Shown here: one piece after another, positions 5,366-37,446 of the stretch | Numbering within the stretch: position 1 is the stretch's first letter | Layout of the letters: each line of letters starts with the position of its first letter | IMG/VR virus record: IMGVR_UViG_3300024346_000014 | Coordinates: 61,650 to 125,649 of that record | DNA length: 64,000 nt | Direction: 5' to 3' (one strand) | Source: a virus | Program-made: the position numbers and the translations under genes | The notes under the pieces: generated by a model | Database searches by the model: none | What the model saw: only the letters and a program-made list of their open reading frames with translations | Told to the model about the DNA's origin: nothing

Positions 5366-5566
5366 TTAAACGCTTCTTAGTTGTTCTATCTCGCTTTCAA
5401 GATATTCTGTAGCTTGGTAGTTTATTTCTTCATCGTGTAGTTGTAAATTCATTCCGTTTTCAAGTTCTATAAATAAACCTTGTTCGCTTTGAAATACTCT
5501 TTTTATTTCTCCCATTTCAGATCTAAGAAATTCCATTCTTTTTTCTGCGTATTTTAAATTTTTCAT
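5366..5566 (-). CDS. small helical protein (66 aa)
   Basis: This charged protein begins MKNLKYAEKRMEFLRSEMGE, with a central beta-like ELENGMNLQLHDEEINY and an acidic helix at the end. It is bracketed by the 59-bp repeats. A purine-rich AAAAAAGGAAG lies before its ATG. The family is unknown. Confidence 0.7.
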   Translation of the reverse strand: MKNLKYAEKRMEFLRSEMGEIKRVFQSEQGLFIELENGMNLQLHDEEINYQATEYLESEIEQLRSV

Positions 5567-5610
5567 AATCTTCCTTTTTTTTGATTAAATTGTTTTCTTC
5601 CCTCGTTAAT

Positions 5611-5639
5611 AAACAAAAGGCCAACTGTTTAGGTGGCCT
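5611..5639 (-). terminator. terminator within repeated element, copy B
   Basis: AGGCCA (5618-5623) pairs with TGGCCT (5634-5639), and TTTTGTTT follows on the minus strand. It lies just downstream of the stop of the 44-residue membrane protein gene. Confidence 0.7.
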
Positions 5640-5669
5640 CTCGTTAACTTAATTAATTCTTGGTTATTA
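5611..5669. repeat. 59-bp direct repeat, copy B
   Basis: This is the second copy of the element at 5288-5346. Its end overlaps the stop codon of the 5667-5801 gene. Confidence 0.85.
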
Positions 5670-5801
5670 ACTAACTATAGTTTCTATAAGTTTAAATACC
5701 ATAAATCCTATAGCATAACTCAATACTACACCTTGTAATACTAATACTGATTTTCCAATTGCAGCGATTCTGCTGTTTCTTTTTCTTGCTCTTGCGTTCA
5801 T
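5667..5801 (-). CDS. small single-span membrane protein (44 aa)
   Basis: A very basic N-terminus (MNARARKRNSR) precedes one membrane span (about residues 17-40). The gene sits 18 bases behind early promoter copy 8 and ends at repeat copy B. The positive-inside rule puts the N-terminus in the cytoplasm. The function is unknown. Confidence 0.65.
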   Translation of the reverse strand: MNARARKRNSRIAAIGKSVLVLQGVVLSYAIGFMVFKLIETIVS

Positions 5802-5819
5802 AATTATTTTGTTTTAATT

Positions 5820-5869
5820 GTTATAAGTAAATATAACTATTTATTACATAAAATAAAAATTCTGTGTAA
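5820..5869 (-). promoter_or_regulatory. early-type composite promoter, copy 8
   Basis: The dyad TTACACA..TATGTAA (5844-5869) precedes GTTATATTTACTTATAAC (5820-5837) on the minus strand. This is one of the best-conserved copies. Confidence 0.65.
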
Positions 5870-6023
5870 TTATTCTTGATAAAGTTTACCCTTCTGTTCT
5901 GGATACCAACACAGTCTAGACCGGGCCTGTTGTACTTATTTAACAGCTAACCTTTTTAAAGCGGGTCAGTGCTACATGGGAGAGGGTATTTTTTCACTCG
6001 TCTAGACACAGAGCCCCTTCCCC

Positions 6024-6050
6024 CAAAAAGCCGGCATAGAAGCCGGCTTT
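6024..6050 (-). terminator. rho-independent terminator
   Basis: AAAGCCGGC (6027-6035) pairs with GCCGGCTTT (6042-6050) around a 6-base loop, with a T-run on both strands. It ends the 6067-6570 gene. Confidence 0.8.
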
Positions 6051-6066
6051 CTGTCCGTCTCTCCTG

Positions 6067-6570
6067 TTAAAGGTTATTGGCCATAATAGCAGCAAGCGTG
6101 AACGTCCATATTAAACCCAATACAAGTACAATCCCGGTCATTACACTACTCCAACCCTGTAGATGAGGTTTAACTATCTGCTGCTTAATCACATGACCAG
6201 TATTGTAATTTAAATAATTCTGCTGGCTACAGTGGATCCATAAACAGGAATCTTGTTTTACCCATTGATTATCCTGTTCCACATAACCGGTTTCAACCTG
6301 AATAAAACAAGAGTTATATACCTTGCCTTTGCTTCCCTCCTCCTGTAGCATCTTCTTTGCAACAACTTGCTGTTCCACTTCTACATACCAGAAAGCTGGC
6401 TTAACATGAAAACACCAAGCCCCAATTACAAGTACAGTTACTATAAGTAATAATTTTCCTAAACCCTTAGGTTTATCATCCTGTTCCTGAGGTCCGGATC
6501 CTCCGCCCTTCATCATATTAGTATTGTTTCTCATTAAAATTGCTGCTGCACCCATTGTTCCTATATTCAT
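6067..6570 (-). CDS. membrane protein with two spans (167 aa)
   Basis: A Met/Asn/Gly-rich cytoplasmic N-terminus is followed by a membrane span at about residues 38-56. Next comes an extracytoplasmic loop with cysteines (NSCFIQVE, SCLWIHCS), and a second span lies at about 143-163. The paired cysteines suggest a disulfide in the periplasm. It is monocistronic, between promoter copy 9 and a strong terminator. No family is recognised; superinfection exclusion or another envelope role is conceivable but unsupported. Confidence 0.7.
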   Translation of the reverse strand: MNIGTMGAAAILMRNNTNMMKGGGSGPQEQDDKPKGLGKLLLIVTVLVIGAWCFHVKPAFWYVEVEQQVVAKKMLQEEGSKGKVYNSCFIQVETGYVEQDNQWVKQDSCLWIHCSQQNYLNYNTGHVIKQQIVKPHLQGWSSVMTGIVLVLGLIWTFTLAAIMANNL

Positions 6571-8994: not shown

Positions 8995-9487
8995 ATTTTT
9001 CTTTGTATTGTTGAAAGTCTTTGCTGTTAACTAAATAACCCCAATGTAATAGACTTTGTTGTATTCTAGGAGATATATCCCAATCGCCGGTTTGGTGTAT
9101 CATTTTATATATTCTTCTTCTCCACCTGCCGTTTTCTCCACAAAAATCATTCCACCTCTTTATTTGCCTACTGTCGTCTGGGTGACGCCTTCCGTTGTAA
9201 TATTTTATATACCATTCAAACCAGCCATACGGGTCATCATCGTGTATCCATTTCATTTCTCTCCAATATTCATATGAAGTTCCGCTTTTAACCTTGAATT
9301 TATTAAGTTTAGTAATATAGGTTTTATTTAGGTATAAATCTATAGGCACATCCGGCAAGGCTCTCTTAAATAGAGTAGAATAGTCGCTGTCCCCTTCTAG
9401 AGCCTCTATACCAAAATAAGAACCTCCAAAAACACCTTCTTTAAGCATTTGTATAGGACTTAGTGCTGGGCAAAAATCTTTAATCAT
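8987..9487 (-). CDS. conserved hypothetical protein (166 aa)
   Basis: It begins MIKDFCPALSPIQMLKEGVF and continues GGSYFGIEA. Trp/Tyr-rich motifs follow: YGWFEWYIKYYNGRRHPDDS and RQIKRWNDFCGENGRW. I recall this pattern from widely scattered uncharacterised proteins of phages, bacteria and fungi, but no activity is known to me. It overlaps both neighbours by a few bases and belongs to the minus-strand operon. Confidence 0.65.
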   Translation of the reverse strand: MIKDFCPALSPIQMLKEGVFGGSYFGIEALEGDSDYSTLFKRALPDVPIDLYLNKTYITKLNKFKVKSGTSYEYWREMKWIHDDDPYGWFEWYIKYYNGRRHPDDSRQIKRWNDFCGENGRWRRRIYKMIHQTGDWDISPRIQQSLLHWGYLVNSKDFQQYKEKYD

Positions 9488-9786
9488 TGCATTAATTGTG
9501 TTAATAAAAAAGCCAACTTATATCCCATAAATGCACCAAGTGCAGTTGGTACCGGAAACACTATGAACTTTCCTAAACTTGTTACATACTTGGGTCGGTT
9601 AACAACTCGCCCTAGAAAAAAGTAATAGACCATGTAACCTAATAATACTAAAATGTCTACTCGCTCTGCTATAAACACTACTAAAACTGCCCCAAGTAGT
9701 CCAAATAAAAAGTTGTCAACTACAGCTGAAATTAACTCCTTACTACTAGTTTGTCTAAACTCTTTTTGTATTTTTTTAAGACTCAT
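9484..9786 (-). CDS. membrane protein (100 aa)
   Basis: There are three hydrophobic segments (about residues 26-42, 44-60 and 76-98) after a basic N-terminus. The start and stop overlap adjacent genes by 4 bases (ATGA), a sign of translational coupling. It could be a holin-type or exclusion protein, but the sequence does not decide this. Confidence 0.65.
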   Translation of the reverse strand: MSLKKIQKEFRQTSSKELISAVVDNFLFGLLGAVLVVFIAERVDILVLLGYMVYYFFLGRVVNRPKYVTSLGKFIVFPVPTALGAFMGYKLAFLLTQLMQ

Positions 9787-10013
9787 CTTTGTTTTGGTAT
9801 TTTAATCTCAAACGTATCAACAATAATAGTTTCAATGTCATTAAAGTAAGAACAAATATGTTCTTCTTCAATATGAACGTGTTGAGATTCTATACAAATA
9901 GTATCTCGCTCTATAAATTGAATTACAGAATATGAATCACACATACTATCTTTAGTTTTACAACTAAACAATATAATTATAAATGCGGTGAATATTGTAT
10001 TTCTAAGTAACAT
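9783..10013 (-). CDS. small lipoprotein (76 aa)
   Basis: With the ATG at 10013 the protein starts MLLRNTIFTAFIIILFSCKT, a signal peptide ending in an LFSC lipobox. The Cys at residue 18 would be lipidated. The mature part is acidic and Cys/His-containing (IESQHVHIEEEHICSYF). Earlier in-frame starts at 10040 and 10058 would overlap the upstream gene and weaken the signal peptide. It is probably an envelope protein; the function is unknown. Confidence 0.65.
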   Translation of the reverse strand: MLLRNTIFTAFIIILFSCKTKDSMCDSYSVIQFIERDTICIESQHVHIEEEHICSYFNDIETIIVDTFEIKIPKQR

Positions 10014-10023
10014 ATTGTTACGC

Positions 10024-10209
10024 TTATTTATTTTTAGCATTTTGGTAACTAAAATCATTTTTTTTAATGGTTCTTTGGTATGCTAGTTCATAGATATCCA
10101 ACAGTAACATATTAGGTTTTTCAATTCTAATTAATGAAACATTGTTAAATAATTCTTTGTGTTTATTTAAATCATAAGCACTGTATACTAAATCTTCTAT
10201 TCTACTCAT
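10024..10209 (-). CDS. hypothetical protein (61 aa)
   Basis: This small soluble protein starts MSRIEDLVYSAYDLNKHKEL. Its ATG overlaps the stop of the upstream gene (ATGAGTAG), so it is coupled. No family is recognised. Confidence 0.55.
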   Translation of the reverse strand: MSRIEDLVYSAYDLNKHKELFNNVSLIRIEKPNMLLLDIYELAYQRTIKKNDFSYQNAKNK

Positions 10210-10333
10210 TTTTATTTTGATCTATATTATTCATCCAATCCCATTCCCTTTTCCTGTATGCAAGGGTATCCATTTCATAAGTCTTTTCAAAAAATAATAT
10301 AGCTAATTTAATAAACTTTTTTAATAATTTCAT
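10202..10333 (-). CDS. very small membrane-associated protein (43 aa)
   Basis: MKLLKKFIKLAILFFEKTYE gives a basic amphipathic or membrane-dipping N-terminus followed by a charged tail. The stop lies inside the start region of the next gene. The coding call is based on composition and the ATG/stop overlap. Confidence 0.5.
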   Translation of the reverse strand: MKLLKKFIKLAILFFEKTYEMDTLAYRKREWDWMNNIDQNKNE

Positions 10334-10360
10334 ATTTACTAGTATCGTCTGAATTTAAAT

Positions 10361-10519
10361 TTAAAAATCTTTAATTTTGTCTATCTTCTTTTTTAAGTCT
10401 TCTATTTCCATAGCTCTTAATTTAAGAGGTCCAATAATTGCTACATAACAATTATTTTCTTTAATGATCTCATATCCTCTATGTGATATATCAAATTTTT
10501 TAAAAATTTTATTTTTCAT
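10361..10519 (-). CDS. small hypothetical protein (52 aa)
   Basis: It starts MKNKIFKKFDISHRGYEIIK and ends in a lysine-rich helix. It has an A-rich leader and follows the 10523-10723 gene at close spacing, as expected for an operon member. No function is assigned. Confidence 0.55.
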   Translation of the reverse strand: MKNKIFKKFDISHRGYEIIKENNCYVAIIGPLKLRAMEIEDLKKKIDKIKDF

Positions 10520-10522
10520 ATT

Positions 10523-10723
10523 TTATATTTTTTTATTTATCATATGCCAAGTACTGACTACATCTAAAAAAAGGTCAGTGTGACTATGAACGGTATTTGG
10601 AAAAATAGATTTGGTTCTTTTTGACCATTCCCATGCCCATTTGTGAGCGCTGTTTTTTTGTTCTTTAGTTTTACAGCTCATCACTATTTTATTTACATAT
10701 TTAAATTGATCTGTTAAATTCAT
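10523..10723 (-). CDS. small hypothetical protein (66 aa)
   Basis: A basic, Trp-rich protein (AHKWAWEWSKRTKSIFPNT). The gene is separated by one base from the upstream gene's stop, so it is part of the operon running from 11419 leftward. No family is recognised. Confidence 0.6.
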   Translation of the reverse strand: MNLTDQFKYVNKIVMSCKTKEQKNSAHKWAWEWSKRTKSIFPNTVHSHTDLFLDVVSTWHMINKKI

Positions 10724-10724
10724 T

Positions 10725-10982
10725 TTAATCTAATAATATCATATATGCTTTCGCGTTATTATTTCTAAACCAAGATATTCCTTTTGCCATTTCACCTTGA
10801 AACTTAACAGTTCTAGGATCCATTACTCCTCCCATTTCTTGTATAATAGTATTTAACCCTAATACGTAGTCGTAAATGCTAAGTTCTAATGCGTTTAGTT
10901 CAAATTGCATTCCACTATATGGGTTTTTTACAATACTGCCTTTTTCGTATAACTCTCCTGTAAACCAACTCGGTGTTTTCAT
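10725..10982 (-). CDS. conserved-looking hypothetical protein (85 aa)
   Basis: It starts MKTPSWFTGELYEKGSIVKN and continues PYSGMQFELNALELSIYDYV, ending ISWFRNNNAKAYMILL. This pattern (TGELYEKG..V.NPYSG..ELN..ELSIYD) recurs in marine phage proteins that I recall without annotated function. It overlaps the 146-residue gene by 4 bases. Confidence 0.65.
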   Translation of the reverse strand: MKTPSWFTGELYEKGSIVKNPYSGMQFELNALELSIYDYVLGLNTIIQEMGGVMDPRTVKFQGEMAKGISWFRNNNAKAYMILLD

Positions 10983-11419
10983 GATTTTATTTTTTTCCAG
11001 AGGACTCCATTTTCTGAAGCACCTATATAATAATATATTCCATACCCTAAATAATGAGGCTCTTTTTCTTCTTTAACAAATAATCTAATTATTAAACCTT
11101 TTTTACTCTTTTTCCATTGAAGTATTTCTTCTTTTTTTGAAATATCTTTCCATGTCTCTATAAATTTATCATCTACAAATATATTACTCCATTTTCCATC
11201 ATCTTTAGCTAAATCTATAAATTGGTTGTATATTTCATTTTTACATACAAAACCTGCTTTAGAACCTCTTCCCATATATGTTTTATCTTTGTCTTTCATA
11301 TTAGAAGTATATTCAGTAGTCTTTTCTATAATATTACGACCTTGGGCTATGGTTTTAAATTTTTTATTTTCAAAGGACTCATATTCATTTTTAGATATCT
11401 TTTCAAGTAAAGTTTTCAT
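10979..11419 (-). CDS. hypothetical protein (146 aa)
   Basis: This basic soluble protein begins MKTLLEKISKNEYESFENKK. It is the first gene of the leftward operon and faces the rightward late-type unit at 11541 across a 120-bp divergent region. No early composite promoter is visible upstream. The family is unknown. Confidence 0.6.
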   Translation of the reverse strand: MKTLLEKISKNEYESFENKKFKTIAQGRNIIEKTTEYTSNMKDKDKTYMGRGSKAGFVCKNEIYNQFIDLAKDDGKWSNIFVDDKFIETWKDISKKEEILQWKKSKKGLIIRLFVKEEKEPHYLGYGIYYYIGASENGVLWKKIKS

Positions 11420-14572: not shown

Positions 14573-16234
14573 ATGCTTAAGAGGCTAACTTTATTATCGA
14601 AAATATCAATAGTTTTACTTTTTTTATTAATGACATTTATATTTGTACTAAATATCACTTTGATATTTGAATTAATAGAAGTTACTTATATGACTTCTTC
14701 AATGTGTTTTATATGCATGCTATTATCAATACCGTTTATACTTATTATAATCAAGGATGCTTTAAAAAACCAAAGACTAGAAGCGGTTAAAAGAAATACA
14801 ATTGAAAACATATTAAACGAGTCATCTTTGATTTCAAAAACAGATAAAGAAGGAACGATAACTCACGTCAATAAATTGTTCTGTGATTCATCTGGATATA
14901 AACCCCATGAGTTACTAGGTAAGAATCATTCTATGTTAAGTTCAGGTAAGCACGACATTAACTTTTGGAAAAAAATGTATAATGCCACGGTTGACCACAA
15001 AACAATATGGAATGAAATAGTGACAAATAAAAGAAAAAATGGAAAAACTTATACAGTAGATTCATGGATAATGGCAGAATTTGATAACAAGGGAAATCAT
15101 ATAGGCTTTATGGCAGTCAGGCATAATTTAACTGGATTGTACGAGTCTTTAGAAAAACTAAAGAATAAAGAAGATGAAATGACAGGTATCATGAATGCAA
15201 TAAATCAATCTAGCGCTACTGTAGAATTTTGCACAAATGGATTTGTTATAGATGCAAATAACAAGTTTTTAGAAATGACAGGTTATCCTACTCTTCATGA
15301 AATACAGGGAAAGCATCATACTATATTCATGGATGAGAGAGAATATGATAATAATAACGAGTATGAAATGTTTTGGAAAAGCATAAAAGAAGGAGTCATT
15401 AAATATGGAGAATATATGAGAATACGAAAAGATGGCTCTATTATTTGGGTAGCAGGTACGTATACGCCTATAATAGATTCTAAAGGTAAAACTGTTAAAA
15501 TTCTTAAGATAGCGAACGACATTACAGGCTCAATAAATCAAAAAATAGAATTAGAAAGAAAAAATTCATATTTAGAACATGCATCTAAAATATTAAGACA
15601 TGATATGCATAGTGGTATAAATACATATATTCCTCGAGGCATATCTTCATTTGAAAGAAGGCTTATCAAGTTTTCTGAAGAAAACGATATACACCCTGAG
15701 GCTTTAGAAAAAATGTTTGAAGGACCTATGAAATTACTTAAAGGTGGTTTAGCTCATTCTCAAAAAGTATACAACGGAGTTAAAGAATTTACTAACTTAG
15801 TAAAAAAAGAATCTACTATGGAAATAGAAAAGGCAGATTTAACACATATACTTAAAATTTATTTAAAAAACACTGCATATTCAAGCAGTGTTTCAATATC
15901 TGAATTAGGAAACGAAATTGTAAATGTTTCATTATTCTGCACGGCAGTAGATAACTTAATAAGAAATGGATTAAAATATAACGATAGTAATACTAAATTA
16001 GTTAAAGTGTATAGAAAAAAAGAAAATATAATAGTAGAAGATAATGGAAGAGGAATGACGAAATCAGAATTTGAAGAATATTCAAAGCCATATACTAGAA
16101 AGCGCAATAATACTGAATCTGGAAGTGGACTGGGATTAAATATATGTATAGCTATTATGAAAGAACATGGATGGAAATTAAACCTCTTAAAAGCGCGAAA
16201 AGGAACTAAACTGGAAATATCTCTAGATAAATAA
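14573..16234 (+). CDS. membrane PAS histidine kinase
   Basis: The 553-residue protein has two membrane spans (about 10-32 and 43-62) and two PAS domains (about 75-190 and 205-325, each with a GY..E..GK.H motif). A dimerisation helix follows with phospho-acceptor H343 (LRHDMHS). The ATPase domain has an N-box (DNLIRNGLKYND, N461/N465), G1 DNGRGM (490-495) and G2 SGSGLGLNI (516-524). All catalytic boxes are present. A late-type box precedes it, and a receiver gene follows. The ligand of the PAS domains is unknown, and a sensor kinase of this kind is very unusual in a phage genome. Confidence 0.9.
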   Translation: MLKRLTLLSKISIVLLFLLMTFIFVLNITLIFELIEVTYMTSSMCFICMLLSIPFILIIIKDALKNQRLEAVKRNTIENILNESSLISKTDKEGTITHVNKLFCDSSGYKPHELLGKNHSMLSSGKHDINFWKKMYNATVDHKTIWNEIVTNKRKNGKTYTVDSWIMAEFDNKGNHIGFMAVRHNLTGLYESLEKLKNKEDEMTGIMNAINQSSATVEFCTNGFVIDANNKFLEMTGYPTLHEIQGKHHTIFMDEREYDNNNEYEMFWKSIKEGVIKYGEYMRIRKDGSIIWVAGTYTPIIDSKGKTVKILKIANDITGSINQKIELERKNSYLEHASKILRHDMHSGINTYIPRGISSFERRLIKFSEENDIHPEALEKMFEGPMKLLKGGLAHSQKVYNGVKEFTNLVKKESTMEIEKADLTHILKIYLKNTAYSSSVSISELGNEIVNVSLFCTAVDNLIRNGLKYNDSNTKLVKVYRKKENIIVEDNGRGMTKSEFEEYSKPYTRKRNNTESGSGLGLNICIAIMKEHGWKLNLLKARKGTKLEISLDK

Positions 16235-16240
16235 ACATAA
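16226..16240 (+). promoter_or_regulatory. T4-type late promoter box
   Basis: GATAAATAAACATAA overlaps the end of the kinase gene, about 34 bases before the receiver start. It is followed by the tandem AACAAACAAT repeat. It may give the receiver extra expression. Confidence 0.5.
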
Positions 16241-16273
16241 CAAACAATAACAAACAATAATATTTAAATCCAT

Positions 16274-16711
16274 ATGATTGACTCAATAATGTTAATAGAC
16301 GATGAAGATCTATTTCACCTAGTATTTGAAGATGCATGCAGTTTATTAGATATAACATTATCTTTACGTGCAATTAACAGTGCTGATAGTGCTGAAAAAA
16401 TGTTTAAAAAATGGTTCGATGGAATAGAAAAACATGAAAAACCATCATGTGTTTTCGTAGACTTAAATATGATAGGTTCTTCTTTCGATGGAATAGAACT
16501 AATTAGAAGAATAAATTTTAATTACGGTAATCATGTGGTTATTGGAATAATATCATCTAGCGATGAAGAAGAAGAACAAGCAAGAGCAATAAGCGCAGGT
16601 GCACAATTCTGGATAATTAAATCAGATGAAATAGAACCTAGGCTGGAAGTTTTTCTAAAGGATTATCCAGGATATGTAGATAGATCGAATTCTTTTAAGA
16701 TATACAAATGA
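16274..16711 (+). CDS. single-domain response regulator (CheY-like)
   Basis: The 145 residues form one receiver domain with acidic pair D9-D10 (LIDDED), phospho-acceptor D63 (FVDLNM), S95 in IISSSD and K116 (IIKSD). No output domain is present, so it should act by protein contact, like CheY or Spo0F. It lies 39 bases after the kinase gene and overlaps the next gene by 4 bases (ATGA), forming a kinase-receiver-membrane protein operon. Confidence 0.9.
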   Translation: MIDSIMLIDDEDLFHLVFEDACSLLDITLSLRAINSADSAEKMFKKWFDGIEKHEKPSCVFVDLNMIGSSFDGIELIRRINFNYGNHVVIGIISSSDEEEEQARAISAGAQFWIIKSDEIEPRLEVFLKDYPGYVDRSNSFKIYK

Positions 16712-17286
16712 TGAAAATAACTTTTTGTAAAGAAACTAAAAATAGGCTTTTAGAAATAGGCAGTGAAAAGGGCATATATATCGAGGGAAATATCTTAAAG
16801 TTAATAGAGTTCGAAGGCGATGAGGAAGTAGAGGCGTATGTGAAAAAAGCGACTAAGTTACAAAAGGAAAAACAACGAAAGCGCTTAGATGTAACTAAAC
16901 AGGTTCAAACTCAAAATAAGCAATTGATAATTGTCAAGGAAGAAATTCAAGAAGCAAACTCTAAATTAGAAGCAGCTTTAACCAACGCTGAACATTCTAA
17001 AGAAAGCGCTTTAAAAGATTTAGATATTCTTCAGAAAAAAACTCAATTTGAATTAGTTACAGTTATTGTAAAAATATCATTAGCTATCATAATAGGAGTT
17101 GGCGTTTTTACAACTGCTTTGTATATGTTTTCTATATACTATGGAAAAGAAACTCAATTAATAGGAAATACCTGGAGTAACATGTTTGGTATATTATTAA
17201 CTAACGCATTTAGCATAATAGGAACTATTATGGGAGTCAAATACGCTACTGGTGAAAATAGAAAGTCTTCACAGAAATACGATTAG
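16708..17286 (+). CDS. coiled-coil membrane protein of the two-component operon (192 aa)
   Basis: An N-terminal small domain (about 1-45) precedes a long charged coiled coil (about 50-110) and two membrane spans (about 115-137 and 150-172). The tail is short and basic. It overlaps the receiver gene by 4 bases and is probably translationally coupled. This architecture would suit a membrane partner of the receiver, but no family is recognised. Its stop shares TTAG with the convergent gene. Confidence 0.7.
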   Translation: MMKITFCKETKNRLLEIGSEKGIYIEGNILKLIEFEGDEEVEAYVKKATKLQKEKQRKRLDVTKQVQTQNKQLIIVKEEIQEANSKLEAALTNAEHSKESALKDLDILQKKTQFELVTVIVKISLAIIIGVGVFTTALYMFSIYYGKETQLIGNTWSNMFGILLTNAFSIIGTIMGVKYATGENRKSSQKYD

Positions 17287-17657
17287 AAATCTATTTCTAA
17301 ATCATCATATTCCTGCGCGTCATCTGATGGAATATCATCAACATAGTTGTCATTCCCTGTATCTAAATCATCCAGTGTTGAATCTAATATATCTTTACCG
17401 AACCTATTATAAAAGGGATATAGTAAATCTTCAATGTACAAAGAACGTGTATTGTCTGTTTTTACAAGTTTCATTGAATTTACTATGTCATTATGATTTT
17501 TTTGGAGAAAATCATTTATTAACCTAGCTCCGTCTACGTAATTATCCATAGTAGCAGCTTGAATAGCTATCTTCTTAAGACTTATTAATGGAATTAGTAT
17601 ACTATTTGAATCTTCATTAGATTCAAATATCTCTATATGTTTATGCTTCAGATTCAT
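17283..17657 (-). CDS. acidic protein with capsid-targeting-like N-terminus (124 aa)
   Basis: The N-terminus MNLKHKHIEIFESNEDSN is short and basic, with an I-F-E site that fits the (I/L)-x-E cleavage pattern of T4-type prohead proteases. The C-terminus is strongly acidic (DDLDTGNDNYVDDIPSDDAQ). The gene overlaps the upstream 424-residue gene by 17 bases. A core or internal head protein is plausible; the family is unknown. Confidence 0.65.
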   Translation of the reverse strand: MNLKHKHIEIFESNEDSNSILIPLISLKKIAIQAATMDNYVDGARLINDFLQKNHNDIVNSMKLVKTDNTRSLYIEDLLYPFYNRFGKDILDSTLDDLDTGNDNYVDDIPSDDAQEYDDLEIDF

Positions 17658-18915
17658 CTTCGTCGAATGGATTTTCTAAATCAAAATCGAAATCTAACAT
17701 ATCTTCAAAGTCATCTCCTAATTCTTCTTCAGGTGCTTCAATAGCTTTTTCCATTTCTTTGTTGATATCATTGACATCTCCTGTTAAGATAAATTCTGCA
17801 AAACTATATAAAGCTTTCGATTTACCGTGTATTTTAATTACATCAGCAATAGATGCATATTGGCTTAAATTTCCTCCATATATATTAAAAATATCACCTA
17901 TTTCGTTTAAGTCAGCATCTTCATAATCTCCGTTAGCTTTAAGGTATGTTAAAAATGCTTTATAGTACTTATTAACAGTTTCAGCAACATCAGGGTTAGA
18001 TGAGATGATATTAGACAAATCAGCTATTTCACTAGGATCTGCGTCATCTCTTATTATTAACTGGGCATATTTCTCTGCAGCTTTTTGTTTTCTTTTTCCA
18101 AAAAGTTCATTTAATATTTTAGTAAATCTATCTGAAAAATCGGCAATGAAATTTCCACCTGTAATTTCTCTAGATTTTACTCTTTTTCTTTTAAGAGCTC
18201 TTGCTTTACCAACTCCAACTCTTCTTGGAACAGGTACCTCTCTACCTCCCATATCTTGATAAGTAGTTTCGTAATCCTCTATTTCAGGATCTAGTATATA
18301 AACGTCTATTTTTCCATCAGCTGCTGTTGGAAAATTCTTAAAGTCATTTCTTTTTCTTCTAGGCGCATCTCTATTGTTAGGATCTACTGGATATGTCAAA
18401 TCTCCTTGATAAGCTTGCCAGTCTCTCAAGATTCTTCCTTCTGCGTCCATTGTAAGTACTCTGTATTTTTTACCTCCACCTTGAGCTTTTTTACCCCATG
18501 CGCTTTCTTTACTATAAATATAATCGAAACGAGGAGCATGACCAGCATATTTACCACCTGGTTCAGGCACAGCGAGTAATATTCTGCAATCTCCCCAAGG
18601 AAGTTTTTCAAGATCTGCTAAGTAACCAGGTTGTTTATATGGATGAACTCCATAATTGTTACCTAGTAATTCTGTTTTTTTCATTCTAAAATGATCTAGT
18701 ACGTCTACAGCGTGTGTAGGTCTATTTTGTGCAATAGGAGGAAGTTCAGCTTGTCTTTGCGACCCTCCTTTAAACGTAAATGGTTTTATTTTTTCTATCG
18801 CATCTGGTAAATTATGTATTACCTTTATTAGTTTTTTAGGCACGCCTAACTTACTGAGAGTGCTTGCCATTTCGTTTATTGAAAACTCACTAAATCCTTT
18901 TAAATAGTTCTTCAT
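17641..18915 (-). CDS. probable virion-internal protein (424 aa)
   Basis: It begins MKNYLKGFSEFSINEMASTL, with a candidate (I/L)-x-E cut after FSINE. A central segment is beta-rich (PWGDCRILLAVPEPGGKYAG), a basic stretch follows (KARALKRKRVKSRE), and the C-terminal 40 residues are very acidic. A second LNE site lies in the middle (RFTKILNE). A late-type box precedes it. No enzyme family is recognised. Confidence 0.65.
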   Translation of the reverse strand: MKNYLKGFSEFSINEMASTLSKLGVPKKLIKVIHNLPDAIEKIKPFTFKGGSQRQAELPPIAQNRPTHAVDVLDHFRMKKTELLGNNYGVHPYKQPGYLADLEKLPWGDCRILLAVPEPGGKYAGHAPRFDYIYSKESAWGKKAQGGGKKYRVLTMDAEGRILRDWQAYQGDLTYPVDPNNRDAPRRKRNDFKNFPTAADGKIDVYILDPEIEDYETTYQDMGGREVPVPRRVGVGKARALKRKRVKSREITGGNFIADFSDRFTKILNELFGKRKQKAAEKYAQLIIRDDADPSEIADLSNIISSNPDVAETVNKYYKAFLTYLKANGDYEDADLNEIGDIFNIYGGNLSQYASIADVIKIHGKSKALYSFAEFILTGDVNDINKEMEKAIEAPEEELGDDFEDMLDFDFDLENPFDEDESEA

Positions 18916-18955: not shown

Positions 18956-19663
18956 TTATATTTTTATAGTATACGCAGTAACCTTACCAATGCCTTTCAA
19001 TTTAGTTAAAGGTTCACATGTATGTAGTTGTAATTCAGATAACATTCTTCCAGATCTCTTTCTTTTACCTGAATAACACTTATGACTATAGTCAGTTATA
19101 TCTATTTTAAATTTATTATCTTCTAAATATTTTACTATTTTTTCTTCCTGAGGTTTATCTAAAGAATCTGTAAAACTAAAAGCTAGTTCACCGGCCTTTG
19201 AAACAGTTGATTCCATTCGAGAAGCAGTATTGACAGTGTTTCCAAAATAATCCCATAATTTTTTATTTTGAATATTAACCTTCTTTTTATACAAAGGTCC
19301 CCATGATATCCCCATTCTAATAGACATGATTTGACCTTTTATTTTAATTGGATTCTTAACTAAATCTTTTTGTATTTCAATACCTGTTAAAATAGCTTTG
19401 TATAACGAATCTGTTCCATCCCATCCAAGCATATAACTATCGCCTATTGTTTTTATTATGTCACCTCCATTTTTTGGAACTATCTTTTCCATTCTTTTTT
19501 CATGTTCTTCTAACGCGTCAAACATTCCGTCTTTGTGTAAATTCCATAATTTAGAACTAGACTTTACATCTGTAAATAGTATGGCTTGATTTTTCTGTTG
19601 TAGTTTATCTAAATCAGATACGCTTTCAAATAATTCAAACTGAGTAATTAGGCTATTATACAT
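18956..19663 (-). CDS. class III adenylate cyclase with capsid-targeting-like N-terminus
   Basis: Residues 26-190 form a class III nucleotidyl cyclase domain. The metal ligands are D32 (LFTDVKSSSKLW) and D75 (KTIGDSYM), and the transition-state pair is N145 and R149 (FGNTVNTASRM). The base-selecting positions K71 and D138 match adenylate rather than guanylate cyclases (K/D instead of E/C). The end LKGIGKVTAYTI is the usual last strand of the domain. There is no membrane or sensor domain; the N-terminus MYNSLITQFELFE instead resembles a capsid-targeting peptide ending in L-F-E. The expected product is cAMP. cCMP or cUMP, as made by Pycsar cyclases, is an alternative. Confidence 0.88.
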   Translation of the reverse strand: MYNSLITQFELFESVSDLDKLQQKNQAILFTDVKSSSKLWNLHKDGMFDALEEHEKRMEKIVPKNGGDIIKTIGDSYMLGWDGTDSLYKAILTGIEIQKDLVKNPIKIKGQIMSIRMGISWGPLYKKKVNIQNKKLWDYFGNTVNTASRMESTVSKAGELAFSFTDSLDKPQEEKIVKYLEDNKFKIDITDYSHKCYSGKRKRSGRMLSELQLHTCEPLTKLKGIGKVTAYTIKI

Positions 19664-19787: not shown

Positions 19788-20855
19788 TTATTTTAAGTAC
19801 TCTCTAGAAAAAGTACCATCTTTATATAGTATTATTACTATTCCAGAAAAATAACTAGGGTTTATTTCTTGCCCACTAATGTTTAAGTACCTAACTACTT
19901 CTTTTTCTCTTTGTCTATTATCTACGTATATTGGACCGAATATTTCAAAGTTACCGTCCCAATCTCTTTGAATTAGTCTGTAATAGTTTATTTCATGAAG
20001 TGGATTCATTTGAACACATGAATAATACTGTTGTGTATTTGAATTACCTGCGGCCGTTTGTGAATCTATTAAATTCCATTCATATGCATCTATACTCCAT
20101 TCTACATCAAATGCATCACTGTTAGATTCAGACATAGTCGACCAACTTAAAATATTATAATCATTTTTTTGTTCACCTCTAAAATATATTAATTCAACCG
20201 GTAAAGGATTGTTAACTGATCCTAACAGATATATGTCGTCTATCCACCATTCTTCGCCTGGCCTATCTACCAATGATAAAATATCAACAGCCACTTGAGT
20301 AGTTCCAAAAGGTAGAATTAATTCTAAAACGGAATATCCATCCCCCGTTAGCGTTCTATTTCCTCCTCCAGCTGGTGTAAATATATCTAAATTTCCATCT
20401 ACATTTACTGAAGCAATTTGTGAATTATAATCCCAATAAGCATTGTTAAAACCAGTGACTCTTAGTTCAGAAGAATAGTTAGAACCTCCATCGGTAGATA
20501 TTTGTACTTCTACATAATCGCTAGCATCTACGCCAGACGATCCTCCCGTTGATGTAAATCTATATGCTCCTAAATTAATTTGTATTTTATATTCCTTAAA
20601 TGGATCTAATCCTGTTATGTTTGGTAAAGAATACCAATCATATTCGTCTGTACCGCCGCCAGTTCCATAAATAACAGCTGATGTAGGTGCTGATTTTGAA
20701 GCGTTTGTAAAAAATCCAGTAGTCGGTTCTGAAAAGTACCAATTTCCATTCCAATCAAAATCTTCCATACGATCAAATTTAACAGTATCAGTATATGATT
20801 GGGAATAAAAAAATTGAGATAGTGATAAGGTTAAAAGTAAAACTAACTTATTCAT
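19788..20855 (-). CDS. secreted Bacteroidota-type surface protein with T9SS-like C-terminus
   Basis: A Sec signal peptide (MNKLVLLLTLSLSQFFYSQS) precedes a beta-sandwich region with aspartates and glycines. Then come the linker NPLPVELIYFRGE and a fibronectin-like module (ILSWSTMSESNSDAFDVEWS..AGNSN..YYRLIQRDWDGN). The last 45 residues (VVRYLNISGQEI..GIVIILYKDGTFSREYLK) look like a type A sorting domain of the type IX secretion system. This architecture is common in Flavobacteriia surface adhesins and unusual for phages. It is flanked by late genes and its own terminator. Confidence 0.75.
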   Translation of the reverse strand: MNKLVLLLTLSLSQFFYSQSYTDTVKFDRMEDFDWNGNWYFSEPTTGFFTNASKSAPTSAVIYGTGGGTDEYDWYSLPNITGLDPFKEYKIQINLGAYRFTSTGGSSGVDASDYVEVQISTDGGSNYSSELRVTGFNNAYWDYNSQIASVNVDGNLDIFTPAGGGNRTLTGDGYSVLELILPFGTTQVAVDILSLVDRPGEEWWIDDIYLLGSVNNPLPVELIYFRGEQKNDYNILSWSTMSESNSDAFDVEWSIDAYEWNLIDSQTAAGNSNTQQYYSCVQMNPLHEINYYRLIQRDWDGNFEIFGPIYVDNRQREKEVVRYLNISGQEINPSYFSGIVIILYKDGTFSREYLK

Positions 20856-24541: not shown

Positions 24542-24895
24542 TTAAATTTCTTCTTCTTCCTCTTCTTCGTCTTCTTCAACTTCTTCGTCCTCGTCTTCGT
24601 CTTCTTCTTCGACTTCTTCGTCCTCGTCTTCTTCCTCTTCGTCTTCTCCACCTTCTAATGCAGATAATCTTTCTTCGAGGTCATCAACTACAGCTTTAAG
24701 ATCTTCCATGGTAAGTTCTTCTTCGTCTTCGCCTTCTTCCATATCTAGATCTGGATCTTCATCCATTTCATCCATATCTTCTTCAGGTGCTTCTGAATAA
24801 TTATCCATGCTCATAGCGAATTGGTTATCAGTTTCTTCCATTTCATTCAGTCTATTCTTCATGAAGGAATTAAAGTTAGCAATTTTTCTTTTCAT
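24542..24895 (-). CDS. highly acidic probable prohead core protein (117 aa)
   Basis: The N-terminus MKRKIANFNSFMKNRLNE is basic and ends in an L-N-E site. The rest is overwhelmingly Glu/Asp, with a short coiled coil (MEDLKAVVDDLEERLSALEG). T4 head core proteins such as gp67 are similarly small, acidic and processed. A late-type box lies upstream. I infer a scaffold/core role; sequence identity to gp67 is not evident. Confidence 0.65.
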   Translation of the reverse strand: MKRKIANFNSFMKNRLNEMEETDNQFAMSMDNYSEAPEEDMDEMDEDPDLDMEEGEDEEELTMEDLKAVVDDLEERLSALEGGEDEEEEDEDEEVEEEDEDEDEEVEEDEEEEEEEI

Positions 24896-27151: not shown

Positions 27152-28261
27152 TTATAAACCCGCATCTACTGAGGTTCTATCTGCTGGATCTTGTTTTTCA
27201 GCTTGATATATTTGATTACCATCTGTGTAGAATAATATATCCTTTACGGTCCAATCTCCTCCATTAGGGTATTTTGCTTCATAAGCAGCAATTAATTGTT
27301 TAAGGTATTCAGTATCAGTATATATTCTTTTAAAGAATTCCCTATCCTTAGCATTAGTTATCGCAGTAGTTGAACCGTTTTTATTAATCCAAAATGGTTC
27401 TCCATCTTTTAAAGATATCCAACCTTCATTGGAACCATCTCTACTTACTGCCCAGAATTTTAATTCTCCTTTTTCTCCTTCGTCAATTGTAATCGTATAT
27501 AAAAGACCGTCTGCTCCACTTTGATATTCAAATTTCTTACCTATTAAAGAATCATCAGGTAAAGGTATATCATCCACTATCTCATCTTCAATTTCTTCTA
27601 CTTCTACATCATCATCTACTACTACATCATCTACTACTTCAGTTTCATCTTCAACCTTAATAATTGTATTTGAAAGAGCTTGCTGATTTATAGCTAGTTG
27701 GTTATCGATTGCCATTATAGCTTTTATATTTATGTAATTTACTCCATCTATTGAAACTAATTCAGTACCGTCTGTTGCGATAGCATCCTGTTTTTTCAAA
27801 AGCTCAGCCCTATTTAGTATAGTAAACTGTATTTTTTGTTTTCTGTCATTGTCTATTCTAACAGAGTAGGCTATGATTTTATTCTGAAAAAATAATTGGT
27901 CTAATTTACCATATTGATTTACGAATGAATTTTCACCATTTAAAAATTGAGTTAGAGCATTTTGCCCTTCAGCATTTAAATTTGAGTTTTTATCTAACCA
28001 GTTATAATCATTTACTAGTTTTACTATAAAATTAGAGGTATCTTGAGCTTTCCATACTACTTTATGTTTTACTCCAGTTGCATCTCTATATACTTCCTTT
28101 CCTCTTACTCCTGTTATCTTATCGCTACCTTGCCCTAACGAAGAGCCGGCTTTCTTTAAAGCCTTTTTTTCTTTTCTTTTTTCACGAGCCTTTTTAAAAA
28201 GTTGTTCGTCTACGTGATTAGATGATTTGTCAAAATCACTAAAGCTTTTAATAGTCTTCAT
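27152..28261 (-). CDS. probable virion-internal protein (369 aa)
   Basis: The N-terminus MKTIKSFSDFDKSSNHVDEQ resembles the other targeting-like peptides, although the cut site (VDE) is less canonical. A lysine-rich segment, a mixed domain, an acidic Val/Asp/Glu linker (about 205-235) and a beta-rich C-terminal domain follow. Head-internal location is suggested by the N-terminus and neighbours only. The family is unknown. Confidence 0.6.
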   Translation of the reverse strand: MKTIKSFSDFDKSSNHVDEQLFKKAREKRKEKKALKKAGSSLGQGSDKITGVRGKEVYRDATGVKHKVVWKAQDTSNFIVKLVNDYNWLDKNSNLNAEGQNALTQFLNGENSFVNQYGKLDQLFFQNKIIAYSVRIDNDRKQKIQFTILNRAELLKKQDAIATDGTELVSIDGVNYINIKAIMAIDNQLAINQQALSNTIIKVEDETEVVDDVVVDDDVEVEEIEDEIVDDIPLPDDSLIGKKFEYQSGADGLLYTITIDEGEKGELKFWAVSRDGSNEGWISLKDGEPFWINKNGSTTAITNAKDREFFKRIYTDTEYLKQLIAAYEAKYPNGGDWTVKDILFYTDGNQIYQAEKQDPADRTSVDAGL

Positions 28262-28327: not shown

Positions 28328-29095
28328 ATGAATATTAGATCATTTAATGAATATGAACAATATATAAATGGAAACGACAAAGATATTGTCAATAAAATAC
28401 ACATTTTGAAAGAAGGAAACTTTAATTATACGTCTCCTTTTATAAAAATAAATTCAGTACAGGAAGCAGCTGATATGCCTGTATTAATATGTAATGATTT
28501 TAAAATATCTAATTTAAACGAGTCTAATGTTTCTAATGTATATAATTCATTTAATTTTAAAAAGGGTAGTAATTACATTAAGAAACATATAGGAGAATCT
28601 TTTATACCTAAAGCAGTTAACAACAGAAATAATGTAAAAAGATTAAAATTTCCTATAGTAGCTTCTAGTAAAAGTAGATCCACTACATATAATTCATTAT
28701 ACAAATTCAATAAGTCGGAAAATGATTATAGTAAATTTCAAGAAAAAATAATACCTAAAACTAAGTATGAAGCGTTGATGTTCAATAATGAACTTGTTTC
28801 AGTTTATGAAAAAATAAACGATAAGCTTTACGAAAAAAATAATTTAGGTAATTTAAAAAAGGCTATTGAAAACATAACTAATAAAGTATCTGAAAGTCAC
28901 GGTTTCAATGCCTACTATCTTAGTATATACGAGTCTACTGATGGAAGATATTATTTAAATAAAATAAAGAAATGTAAATCTTTTAATGAAAAACAATCAT
29001 ATCAATTGTATGTAAAAGTATATGAACATCACTATGGATATAAGATACCTACATGGTTTAAAAATAAAATAAAAGATATAGATGCTGATAATTAA
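28328..29095 (+). CDS. hypothetical protein with targeting-like N-terminus (255 aa)
   Basis: It begins MNIRSFNEYEQYINGNDKDI with a HILKEG site at about residues 27-32, a good (I/L)-x-E|G match. The remainder is basic and rich in Asn, Ser and Tyr, with no recognised domain. It is the first gene of the plus-strand late cluster and overlaps the bS21 gene by 14 bases. Confidence 0.65.
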   Translation: MNIRSFNEYEQYINGNDKDIVNKIHILKEGNFNYTSPFIKINSVQEAADMPVLICNDFKISNLNESNVSNVYNSFNFKKGSNYIKKHIGESFIPKAVNNRNNVKRLKFPIVASSKSRSTTYNSLYKFNKSENDYSKFQEKIIPKTKYEALMFNNELVSVYEKINDKLYEKNNLGNLKKAIENITNKVSESHGFNAYYLSIYESTDGRYYLNKIKKCKSFNEKQSYQLYVKVYEHHYGYKIPTWFKNKIKDIDADN

Positions 29096-29261
29096 AGTCA
29101 TTGATGGAAAAATAGAATATGCTTTAAAGAAGTATAAAAAGAAAAATAGAGATACTCAAGTTTTAAAACAACTACGAGATAGGATGACGTATACTAAAAA
29201 GTCTGAATATAAACGAAATATTAAAAATAAAGCTATACGAAAAAACAATTATGAAAAATAG
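29082..29261 (+). CDS. rpsU: ribosomal protein bS21 homologue
   Basis: The 59 residues start MLIIKVIDGKIEYALKKYKK and continue KNRDTQVLKQLRDRMTYTKK. This matches the bS21 pattern of a VK.G..IE.ALK..K strand-helix followed by L..LR.R..Y.K and a basic tail. It overlaps both neighbouring genes, so it is expressed with late virion genes. bS21 sits near the anti-Shine-Dalgarno end of 16S rRNA, which in Flavobacteriia is masked by bS21/bS18/bS6. A phage version could therefore change message choice. Confidence 0.85.
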   Translation: MLIIKVIDGKIEYALKKYKKKNRDTQVLKQLRDRMTYTKKSEYKRNIKNKAIRKNNYEK

Positions 29262-29832
29262 AATCAAATCATTTAGTCAATATATAGGTAGCTCTTTGAT
29301 ATCTGAAAATCTACAATATCACATATCTAATTCAATATCTATAGTAGAGACAGTATTTAGACCAGGCAGTGTTTCTCACATAGAACTTCTTAATGAAGCT
29401 AGATCATTATATAAATCAGGAGAATTACAACTGAGCGGAGATGATGCTTTTCTTTTTGATACAACAGATCTAGGTAGAACAGGAATCTATGAAGGAGTTG
29501 TGGTTCCACTTGACTTACCACTTGAAGATTTTATTTTAAATGAAGCAAAATATAAAGGACGAGAAGTTAAACTTAACTATCCTACTAGAGGAGGATCCAA
29601 AAAGTTCAAAGTATATGTTAAAAATCCTAAGACTGGAAATGTTAAGATGTTACAAATAGGTGATACCACAGGTTTAAAAGCGAAAGTAAGTAACCCTAAA
29701 GCTAGAAAGAGTTTTGCTGCAAGACATAAATGTCACTTAAAGAAAGATAAAACAACAGCTGGATATTGGTCCTGTAGAATTAACAAATATGCTCATCTTT
29801 GGGGAGGAAAAACGTATCCAGGATATTGGTAA
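29251..29832 (+). CDS. probable virion protein with targeting-like N-terminus (193 aa)
   Basis: The N-terminus MKNRIKSFSQYIGSSLISEN ends in an L-I-S-E site. The C-terminal 75 residues (FKVYVKNPKTGNVKMLQIGD..ARKSFAARHKC..KDKTTAGYWSCR) match a module seen at the end of several marine T4-like phage structural proteins. I recall it as DUF5872-like. The module is basic with conserved Cys/His, so it may bind DNA or metal. The exact function is not established. Confidence 0.7.
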   Translation: MKNRIKSFSQYIGSSLISENLQYHISNSISIVETVFRPGSVSHIELLNEARSLYKSGELQLSGDDAFLFDTTDLGRTGIYEGVVVPLDLPLEDFILNEAKYKGREVKLNYPTRGGSKKFKVYVKNPKTGNVKMLQIGDTTGLKAKVSNPKARKSFAARHKCHLKKDKTTAGYWSCRINKYAHLWGGKTYPGYW

Positions 29833-30667: not shown

Positions 30668-31438
30668 ATGGAACGAATTAAAGATTATAATGAGTACTTA
30701 AAAGAAGCACACCCAACTGAATACAAGGCCCCTAAAGGAAGCTCCAGGGATGCTAAATTAAATAAAGCTAAGAAACTATTAAAGGGATCTGAAGCCGATA
30801 AGAAAAAAGCTTATAAACTTAGAGATGAGATGGAAGCTGAAGAGAGAACAAATGAAACAATAGACCCTAAGGTGGATTTAAAAGAATTCGCTGAAAAAAG
30901 AGGAGACGGAGCAAAAAGCACAGTGGATAGCTCTAAAGAAAAAGGAGGCCTTTCAATGCTTTCATATGATCATTTTAAAGTTAAACTTCCATATTATAAA
31001 AAAGCAGCTAGTGGAAAATTTGATATGTCAGATTTTAAAGATGAATATGATGAATTATTGAACGAACTAATAGAAGCTACTTCTAAAGATATGAACATTA
31101 CCCAAAAGAAATTTCAAGAAATAGTAGGTAAAATAGAAGTATTAGGAGAACTTTGTATAAGAAATAAAGACACTGAACCTATTAATGAAGCTAAAAAAGC
31201 AAAGAAAAAGAAAAAGACTTTAAGTAAAGCAACTGAAGCAAAAATAAGAAAAGTCGCAAATAAAAAAGGATATACCTTTGGTAGTTTAAGAGCAGAGTAC
31301 ATTAAGGGCCTTGGAGCATTTTACAGTTCTGGGTCAAGACCAGGCATGACTGCACATGGATGGGCAATGGCTAGAGTAAATAAAGCAACACCTAGTAAAC
31401 CATGGGCAAACGTTAAAAAAAGTAAATCTAAAAAGTGA
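30668..31438 (+). CDS. basic virion-type protein with targeting-like N-terminus (256 aa)
   Basis: MERIKDYNEYLKEAHPTEYK contains L-K-E|A, the best match to a T4 gp21-type site. Two lysine-rich regions flank a helical domain. The C-terminal GLGAFYSSGSRPGMTAHGWA and MARVN match a short module seen in DNA virus and phage proteins of unknown function. DNA association in the head is likely from charge and context. Confidence 0.7.
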   Translation: MERIKDYNEYLKEAHPTEYKAPKGSSRDAKLNKAKKLLKGSEADKKKAYKLRDEMEAEERTNETIDPKVDLKEFAEKRGDGAKSTVDSSKEKGGLSMLSYDHFKVKLPYYKKAASGKFDMSDFKDEYDELLNELIEATSKDMNITQKKFQEIVGKIEVLGELCIRNKDTEPINEAKKAKKKKKTLSKATEAKIRKVANKKGYTFGSLRAEYIKGLGAFYSSGSRPGMTAHGWAMARVNKATPSKPWANVKKSKSKK

Positions 31439-31935
31439 AAACCTTCAAAAATTTAAAATCTATATTGAACGAAGAATGGAAAGATGTCATTGATTCATTA
31501 GAAAAAAAGGTAGCGGGCGTGTGTATAATATATGAAAATAAAATATTATTAGTTCACCCAACAAACGCGAGCTGGCAAAAAAGAACGTTAGGCATACCTA
31601 AAGGAAAAGTAGAAACTGGAGAAGATGTTTTAACAGGAGCAATTAGAGAATTGAAAGAGGAAACTGGAATATCACTGAATCCTTCTATTCTATCTAGATC
31701 TGAGCCATATGTATGTAACACCTATAATAAAAAAGGAGATATAGAAAAGCAACTTATTTATTTTTTACATGAAGTAACAAGTCTGTCTGAAATAGGAATG
31801 ACGAGTTTAAGAATATCAAATGATAACTTACAAAAAGAAGAAATAGATTGGGCAGGTTTCTTAAGTGCAGATGAGGCCTATCCAAAAATAAGTAAGTGGC
31901 AGTTAATAGTTTTAGATCGTCACCTGAACAAATAA
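31435..31935 (+). CDS. NUDIX hydrolase with capsid-targeting-like N-terminus
   Basis: The NUDIX box G57-x5-E63-x7-R71-E72-x2-E75-E76-x-G78 is complete, in the usual beta-alpha-beta context (VAGVCIIYENKILLVHP). The gene starts with GTG overlapping the previous TGA. The first 14 residues, MKTFKNLKSILNEE, precede the domain and end in a L-N-E site, like neighbouring putative injected proteins. NUDIX enzymes cleave nucleoside diphosphates linked to another moiety; candidates are alarmones, NAD-type molecules, ADP-ribose or RNA caps. The substrate cannot be read. Confidence 0.85.
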   Translation: MKTFKNLKSILNEEWKDVIDSLEKKVAGVCIIYENKILLVHPTNASWQKRTLGIPKGKVETGEDVLTGAIRELKEETGISLNPSILSRSEPYVCNTYNKKGDIEKQLIYFLHEVTSLSEIGMTSLRISNDNLQKEEIDWAGFLSADEAYPKISKWQLIVLDRHLNK

Positions 31936-31945
31936 ATAACTATAA
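31929..31945 (+). promoter_or_regulatory. possible T4-type late promoter box
   Basis: CAAATAAATAACTATAA lies just before the ATG at 31950. It overlaps the NUDIX stop codon, so it may only partly serve as a promoter. Confidence 0.4.
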
Positions 31946-31949
31946 TATT

Positions 31950-36021: not shown

Positions 36022-37446
36022 TTATATGTTTTTTAATTGATTCATTAATGACTCATAGTCTGCACTATCATTATCTGTTTTTCTAAGTTCGTCTTGTGTT
36101 GTCTCCTTTGGTTTTTCCTTTACTTCAGGTGTATCTTCTATTTCATCGAAAATACTCAATTGATTATCATCTACTATTGCATTAGATGATGCTTGTGCAC
36201 CTATCTTTCCGTTCTCAATAATTATATTTTCTAAATTTGTAATTATTTCATTTGTACATATATCGGCATTTGAATGCTTTTTCCAATATGTAAATGCCAT
36301 TTCTCTCCATTCGTCTCTCATTACTGGGTCATTTGACAATTTGACCATTAATTTTTTAGTTTCTTCAAAGTTAGTATGATCTAAACCAATAGTTCCGCTA
36401 TGGGAATCCTTAGTCACAGGATTACCTGTTATTCTATGAATTACATTATCACAAAAGTGTTTATGAAAAATAGGAATGGTACCTGAAGCAACAACTTCGG
36501 CGTGACAGTTTTCTATATTATTACCATACATATGAGCCTTTAAGTGATATAGATCAGAACCAAAAGCACTTTTAGCCATTCTTTCCATACAGTCTACGTT
36601 AGTGTAAGGTGGATACAAATAAGAACCTGATCCAGGAGTTTCTTTTCCATGTAAATCTTCTGTAAATTTTACCTCATTTAATTCTTTTCTAGGTCTAAAA
36701 TGATTTACTATTTCATGATCTTTATAGAAAGGCTTTCCATTTTTATTATCTCCTTTTTCATATAAGATACCTGCCCATCCTATGCTTGCTTCTAATCCTT
36801 CAAGAATAGTTATGTAATTTTCTTCCATCAATTGTTGAGCATGGAAATCCATCATTAAATTAGGACCTTTCCAACCTGATAGTCTACCTATCCATCTAAC
36901 TGTTTTATGATCCTGTTCGTCTATAGGCAACCAATATTTTTCACGATGATCATCATATGTAAAACCTAACGCCATTTTCTTGAAAGGAGTATTTACATTC
37001 TCTCTTTTAGCCCATCTAGTAAAGTCTGATTCTAATGAATGAGTCATCAATACATCTACACTATTACATATTTCATCAAATTTACCATTTCTACTTAGAG
37101 ATTGCATTTTATGATCTAATTGAACAATAGCTTTGGGTAAAGTAATACCTTGTACAAGCTTAACAAAGTTGATTTGACAATCTTCTGGATGCTTTTTAGA
37201 AGGAACAGAATAGACAAGAACCATATCAAAGTTTTCATTTACTTCATCCAAAACTCTGGTCATTTCTTCAGATTTTCCACAAGTAAACTCATCTTTATCA
37301 AAGACCATAGTGTCTCTACGAGCCCATTTCTTATCTAAAGTTGCAAATATTTTAGTATTAGGTGTTGCTTTTTGAAATTCTACAGCACATCTTGTTACGC
37401 CACAGCCTTCTACTCCTCTGCCTAATATTATAGCTATCTTTTTCAT
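36022..37446 (-). CDS. T4 AGT-like DNA glucosyltransferase
   Basis: The 474-residue GT-B protein aligns by eye with T4 alpha-glucosyltransferase along its length: ILGRGVEGCGVTR at the N-terminus, VRWIGRLSGWKGPNLMMDFH, TILEGLEASIGW, MERMAKSAFG and VASGTIPIFHK. T4 AGT transfers glucose from UDP-glucose to hydroxymethylcytosine in DNA. An acidic, disordered tail of about 70 residues is extra. Its presence implies modified bases in this phage genome. The base and sugar are not determined here, and no hydroxymethylase gene is in the window. Confidence 0.8.
   Translation of the reverse strand: MKKIAIILGRGVEGCGVTRCAVEFQKATPNTKIFATLDKKWARRDTMVFDKDEFTCGKSEEMTRVLDEVNENFDMVLVYSVPSKKHPEDCQINFVKLVQGITLPKAIVQLDHKMQSLSRNGKFDEICNSVDVLMTHSLESDFTRWAKRENVNTPFKKMALGFTYDDHREKYWLPIDEQDHKTVRWIGRLSGWKGPNLMMDFHAQQLMEENYITILEGLEASIGWAGILYEKGDNKNGKPFYKDHEIVNHFRPRKELNEVKFTEDLHGKETPGSGSYLYPPYTNVDCMERMAKSAFGSDLYHLKAHMYGNNIENCHAEVVASGTIPIFHKHFCDNVIHRITGNPVTKDSHSGTIGLDHTNFEETKKLMVKLSNDPVMRDEWREMAFTYWKKHSNADICTNEIITNLENIIIENGKIGAQASSNAIVDDNQLSIFDEIEDTPEVKEKPKETTQDELRKTDNDSADYESLMNQLKNI

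Follow-up and report, generated by a model that had tools for sequence, protein, structure and literature searches.

A membrane histidine kinase, a single-domain response regulator and a coiled-coil membrane protein are encoded in one operon of a phage that is, by its terminase, baseplate wedge, tail-lysozyme protein and T4-type alpha-glucosyltransferase, a T4-like tailed phage, and by its distribution this triad is a virus-restricted, obligate three-gene family. The reading we favour, with confidence a little short of even, is a two-component system peculiar to viruses, in which the receiver acts on the dedicated membrane partner and the output most likely times or licenses lysis. Two-component chemistry is already known, as are isolated phage parts such as stray kinases and quorum-sensing parts, and in the open-access literature searched we found no two-component system that is complete, virus-restricted and strongly conserved and that brings a membrane effector of its own. 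If the cassette controls lysis, T4-type lytic phages make signal-driven decisions during infection, and point mutations of a single residue, H343 or D63, could test how they choose the time of lysis.

The operon and its phage

The source record is a virus of 125,649 bases, and the window analysed here, 64,000 nucleotides long, covers positions 61,650 to 125,649 of IMGVR_UViG_3300024346_000014; coordinates below are those of the window. The features of the operon are as follows.

14573..16234, plus strand: membrane histidine kinase (HK), 553 aa, with N-terminal membrane hairpin, PAS1, PAS2, H-box helix and HATPase_c
14816..15133, plus strand: PAS1, aa 82-187; nearest solved structures MmoS 3ewk (5e-19), Aer 8dik and NifL 2gj3
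15230..15526, plus strand: PAS2, aa 220-318, from the Pfam domain search
15599..15601, plus strand: H343, presumed phospho-acceptor, in the invariant motif RHDMHSG
15938..16228, plus strand: ATP-binding domain, aa 456-552, with N461/N465, DNGRGM and SGSGLGLNI
16274..16711, plus strand: single-domain response regulator (RR), 145 aa, without output domain; Response_reg 7.5e-10
16460-16462, 16556-16558 and 16619-16621, plus strand: receiver active-site codons D63, S95 and K116
16708..17286, plus strand: dedicated membrane partner, 192 aa, with small N-terminal domain, cytosolic coiled coil and two TM spans
17053-17127, plus strand: partner TM1
17173-17247, plus strand: partner TM2, 94% mean conservation

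All three genes are intact and lie exactly where the initial annotation had placed them. The overlaps it described hold for the response regulator and the third ORF, which share 4 bp, and not for kinase and response regulator, which stand 39 bp apart. It had also assigned the operon to the late regulon on the basis of late-type promoter boxes, a placement that the counts do not bear out, since TATAAATA stands 5' of 5 of about 81 ORFs where 3.0 are expected after shuffling. Neither this motif nor Bacteroidota-type and other promoter motifs clearly exceeded the shuffled expectation upstream of the ORFs.

Distribution and constraint

Relatives of the receiver are encoded on 526 IMG/VR stretches, the best 80 of which show 73-100% identity over nearly all residues; the partner as query recovered 465 stretches, and its alignment at least 484. 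Wherever the flank suffices the triad is complete, with order and strand kept (79/79 and 68/68 distinct loci), and the kinase adjoins the receiver in all 68 of the latter. Spacing is tight, with a median RR-partner overlap of 1 bp, and one extra gene is occasionally inserted between members. The search of related phages that had been proposed as a check thus returns hundreds of viral stretches rather than an isolated insertion.

Outside such contigs the triad is virtually absent. Signature peptides of the partner gave a single match in 84,980 bacterial and archaeal genomes (species), in a scan for exact conserved peptides that diverged cellular relatives could escape and that covered Bacteroidota by peptides only. 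The match, L160, lies in an uncultured bin, on a contig of 16.8 kb whose remaining genes read as phage, including a terminase-like gene (9437-11302) and a PhoH-like gene (5566-6285), both assigned by reading the sequence; 245 genomes of the same phylum held no further copy. The response regulator had zero matches in 50,697 annotated phage records and 72,556 plasmids, the partner none in the same phage records, and the kinase gave only partial matches among annotated phages. A single database relative, A0A6J5RMP2, belongs to an uncultured Caudovirales phage and is 72% identical. A chromosomal host origin was considered and set aside, as nothing in the genome scan, the plasmids or the 245 genomes pointed to one. 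None of the three proteins matched a PADLOC defence model.

The triad is also constrained. In phages whose TerL is only 24-39% identical, the response regulator retains 65-79% identity, the partner 50-57% and the kinase core 49-59%, and the three proteins diverge together (Mantel r 0.34-0.56, exceeding all 1000 permutations). Estimates of dN/dS, with synonymous sites near saturation in some pairs, are 0.01-0.07 for the response regulator, 0.04-0.27 for the kinase and 0.08-0.18 for the partner, values that point to strong purifying selection on the triad. That the genes are ordinary host-derived two-component genes carried as mere passengers would fit the membership of kinase and receiver in ubiquitous bacterial superfamilies, but the lone cellular match on a phage-like contig, the absence of the response regulator from the plasmids and annotated phages searched, the purifying selection and a triad that is intact in each distinct locus of sufficient flank make it very improbable. 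The statement of the initial annotation that this is no random host insert is strongly supported by these results.

Kinase and receiver

Pfam matches to PAS_9 (1e-21, two PAS stretches) and HATPase_c (2.7e-13), together with the invariance of H343, N461/N465, D490-x-G492-x-G494 and G519-x-G521 across 46 relatives, confirm the two PAS domains and the intact H, N, G1 and G2 boxes first read from the sequence. HATPase_c was found in 46/46 kinase relatives. The window kinase had no HisKA match in the Pfam search, and the phospho-acceptor helix is therefore deduced from the invariant H-box; H343 sits 118 residues ahead of N461, a spacing that fits a DHp.

The kinases of relatives range from 293 to 740 aa around the same RHDMHS core, and their sensor parts differ: some lack PAS altogether, others have one or two PAS domains, a GAF domain or what looks like a periplasmic region. 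A variable sensor over one constant core is what would be expected of varied inputs feeding one fixed output. The window kinase itself has almost no periplasmic loop, and both PAS domains are cytosolic. The PAS domains of MmoS, Aer and NifL bind FAD, and PAS1 resembles by sequence these flavin-type redox sensor domains.

Some phages carry two tandem kinases with a secreted protein between them. The secreted coiled-coil family concerned (L036:5938-6540, L071:5958-6563, L074:1572-2186) is a possible periplasmic accessory sensor. In L036 and L071 the second kinase has an apparent periplasmic domain, and such an arrangement fits an envelope signal; the cassette could be read as sensing superinfection or the envelope through its kinase, so as to keep out a second phage or to govern lysis inhibition, in a role like that of T4 RI/T. 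The kinase of the window, however, is nearly devoid of periplasmic loop and has its PAS domains in the cytosol, and a sequence relation to RI or T was not found; we regard this reading as decidedly unlikely.

The receiver was described as CheY-like with intact D63, S95 and K116, and this stands: D9, D10, D63, S94-S96 and K116 show no change in 44 relatives, and the predicted structure (pLDDT 89) has the receiver fold. The receiver domain fills the 145 aa, leaving no DNA-binding domain, LytTR included. Conservation spreads past the active site to alpha1 (0.96) and beta5 (0.96). A fixed target would demand such hyperconservation, and a CheY-like receiver makes a good docking module, both of which would suit a cassette whose receiver or partner acts on a conserved host protein and so redirects the physiology of the host, be it stress, energy, envelope or motility. 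Alpha1 is, however, the usual kinase-docking helix of receivers, and kinase docking explains its conservation too; further, an obligate, dedicated membrane partner implies a phage-encoded target. We return to host rewiring with the gene neighbourhood.

The membrane partner

A long helix (residues 39-145) and two spans are predicted for the third protein, in agreement with its first description as a coiled-coil, two-span membrane protein, and two membrane spans occur in 67/67 representatives. Its most conserved part is TM2, WSNMFGILLTNAFSIVGTIMGVKYA, at 94% against 53% for the whole protein. Here N158, T165, S169, G172 and G176 recur about every 3.5 residues and form a polar/small face, whose pattern suggests helix packing or pore lining; for its conservation and this face TM2 looks like more than an anchor. 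No significant match to Pfam, PHROG or structures, and none to a described holin family, was found for the partner, for which reason we do not file it as a holin. It is longer than typical holins, and some relatives carry separate holin-like genes. A known fold was also sought: the model is a helical hairpin, to which the PDB holds no meaningful match.

A proposed signalling route

With an obligate triad and a receiver that lacks an output domain, the order kinase to receiver to partner is the simplest reading, and a receiver without DNA-binding part would act by docking on the coiled coil of the partner. From its anchorage in the inner membrane of the host, the kinase would read an intracellular or membrane state with its PAS domains and phosphorylate the free receiver on D63. 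One of the two receiver states would then dock on the cytosolic coiled coil and change the state of the two membrane helices, and the output would set when, or whether, the infected cell lyses, the partner being a putative holin-like, antiholin-like or holin-regulating effector. The signal may be redox, via the flavin-type PAS1. In its full form, as a virus-only phosphorelay in which a phage receiver directly gates a phage membrane protein and lytic phages license lysis post-translationally according to the energy or redox status of the infected cell, we advance the proposal tentatively, as a possibility well below even. Redox sensing and lysis timing had both been raised in the initial annotation; they are plausible, with indirect support from the flavin-type PAS likeness and from the lysis-gene neighbours of relatives.

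Lysis genes as neighbours

Clustering of neighbouring genes in relatives showed endolysins to be the commonest family, with GH19/PG-binding proteins in 65 loci, of which 32 have them immediately downstream. The operon is adjoined in addition by phage lysozyme, holin_4_1 and a phrog_33083-like endolysin. In L112 the order is lysozyme, PG-binding protein, holin_4_1, kinase, receiver and partner, and in L050 small membrane protein, lysozyme, M15-peptidase-like protein (read from sequence), kinase, receiver and partner. A multi-span membrane family of about 115 aa lies beside the operon in several phages (L050:9046-9393, L112:8576-8956, L130:4300-4674), and Pfam gave nothing above cut-off for it.

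Among 50 records searched with phrog_181 or PF00959, 32 (41-304 kb long) had a strong endolysin match, and in 28 of these the endolysin lies within 5 kb of the response regulator, where random placement in 20,000 trials gave a mean of 3.8 such records and a maximum of 12. TerL, as a control, was within 5 kb of a strong endolysin in 0/9 records with both. Grouping at 90% partner identity left 21 of 25 groups near an endolysin, while at 60% all groups merge into one and full phylogenetic independence is thus not established; in favour of repeated association, the endolysins are of several families and stand now on one side of the operon, now on the other.

Not every phage follows this pattern. 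The window phage and its nearest relative G001 are exceptions, with the operon beside a sugar epimerase and not beside lysis genes; in the window a nucleotide-sugar epimerase flanks it on one side and genes without assigned function on the other, and about 15 kb separate it from the nearest lysozyme-type gene detected (31896-33926, CHAP and tail lysozyme), the search beyond the window having covered phrog_181 and PF00959. Other relatives have the operon beside dnaK, hsp20-groES-groEL, or replication or recombination genes. The chaperone neighbours, and here the epimerase and a class III cyclase, lend some weight to the rewiring of host physiology, against which stand the lysis enzymes and holin as strongest recurrent neighbours; with the arguments given for the receiver and partner, we judge host rewiring unlikely, although it deserves attention. 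Rewired gliding, suggested at first, found nothing in support.

The cassette's commonest site, among lysis genes, suggests that its output controls lysis. A shared late region can make neighbours without common function, and we treat the lysis role as a hypothesis, founded on gene neighbourhood and on the two-span, polar-faced membrane part of the partner, with about an even chance against its alternatives taken together.

Relation to known systems

Like bacterial two-component systems with HK853-type kinases, the phage proteins keep an intact receiver pocket and intact H, N and G boxes; HK853 aligns with the catalytic domain (1.3e-11), and the receiver fold is nearest to the single-domain bacteriophytochrome regulators of R. 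palustris and Deinococcus. Unlike those systems, the triad is restricted to viruses, has an obligate third membrane gene, lacks a HisKA Pfam match and a DNA-binding output, and possesses its own H-box, RHDMHSGINTY.

LytR-type regulators act through transcription. In Gram-positive bacteria LytSR/LytST-LrgAB is a two-component system governing holin-like membrane proteins, and in S. mutans it responds to oxygenation and glucose (PMC2996381, PMC3507848, PMC8805020). The phage system differs in being phage-encoded, in having a receiver free of any DNA-binding domain, and in showing no sequence relation that we could find. Phage phiCDHM1 encodes and transcribes the histidine kinase AgrC among its agr genes, but these serve peptide quorum sensing, are host-derived and come with no response regulator in the phage genome (PMC3901668). 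A pelagiphage curli cluster contains a phage-borne histidine kinase and an adenylate cyclase, so that a kinase lies near a cyclase as in the window; that kinase is part of a curli (T8SS) cluster, and the available part of the report holds no receiver-plus-coiled-coil triad (PMC9599517). The unrelated cREC of jumbo phages is a receiver-like domain linked to NAD/ADPr enzymes and never found with histidine kinases (PMC7824862), whereas the receiver here is always paired with one.

Other genes in the window

Near the operon, a class III nucleotide cyclase (18956-19663, minus strand; Guanylate_cyc 1.4e-21, weak PycC match 9e-9), a phage-encoded maker of cyclic nucleotides, is 84% conserved in the sister record L003. 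Beside it, the 355 aa protein at 19788-20855 (minus strand) has a signal peptide, and its C-terminal region looks, on inspection by eye, like that of Bacteroidota type IX secretion (T9SS) proteins, a likeness left unproven by Pfam and NCBIfam searches, which gave no match. A T4-type DNA alpha-glucosyltransferase (AGT, 2e-29) at 36022-37446 (minus strand) suggests that the phage DNA is glucosylated. Many window proteins, the cyclase included, open with a similar leader (MK.F..F....NE-like) that recalls T4 capsid-targeting sequences; their ORFs are 17641-18915, 18956-19663, 24542-24895, 27152-28261, 28328-29095, 29251-29832, 30668-31438, 31435-31935, 31896-33926 and 46007-46816, and their products may enter the head during packaging and be injected.
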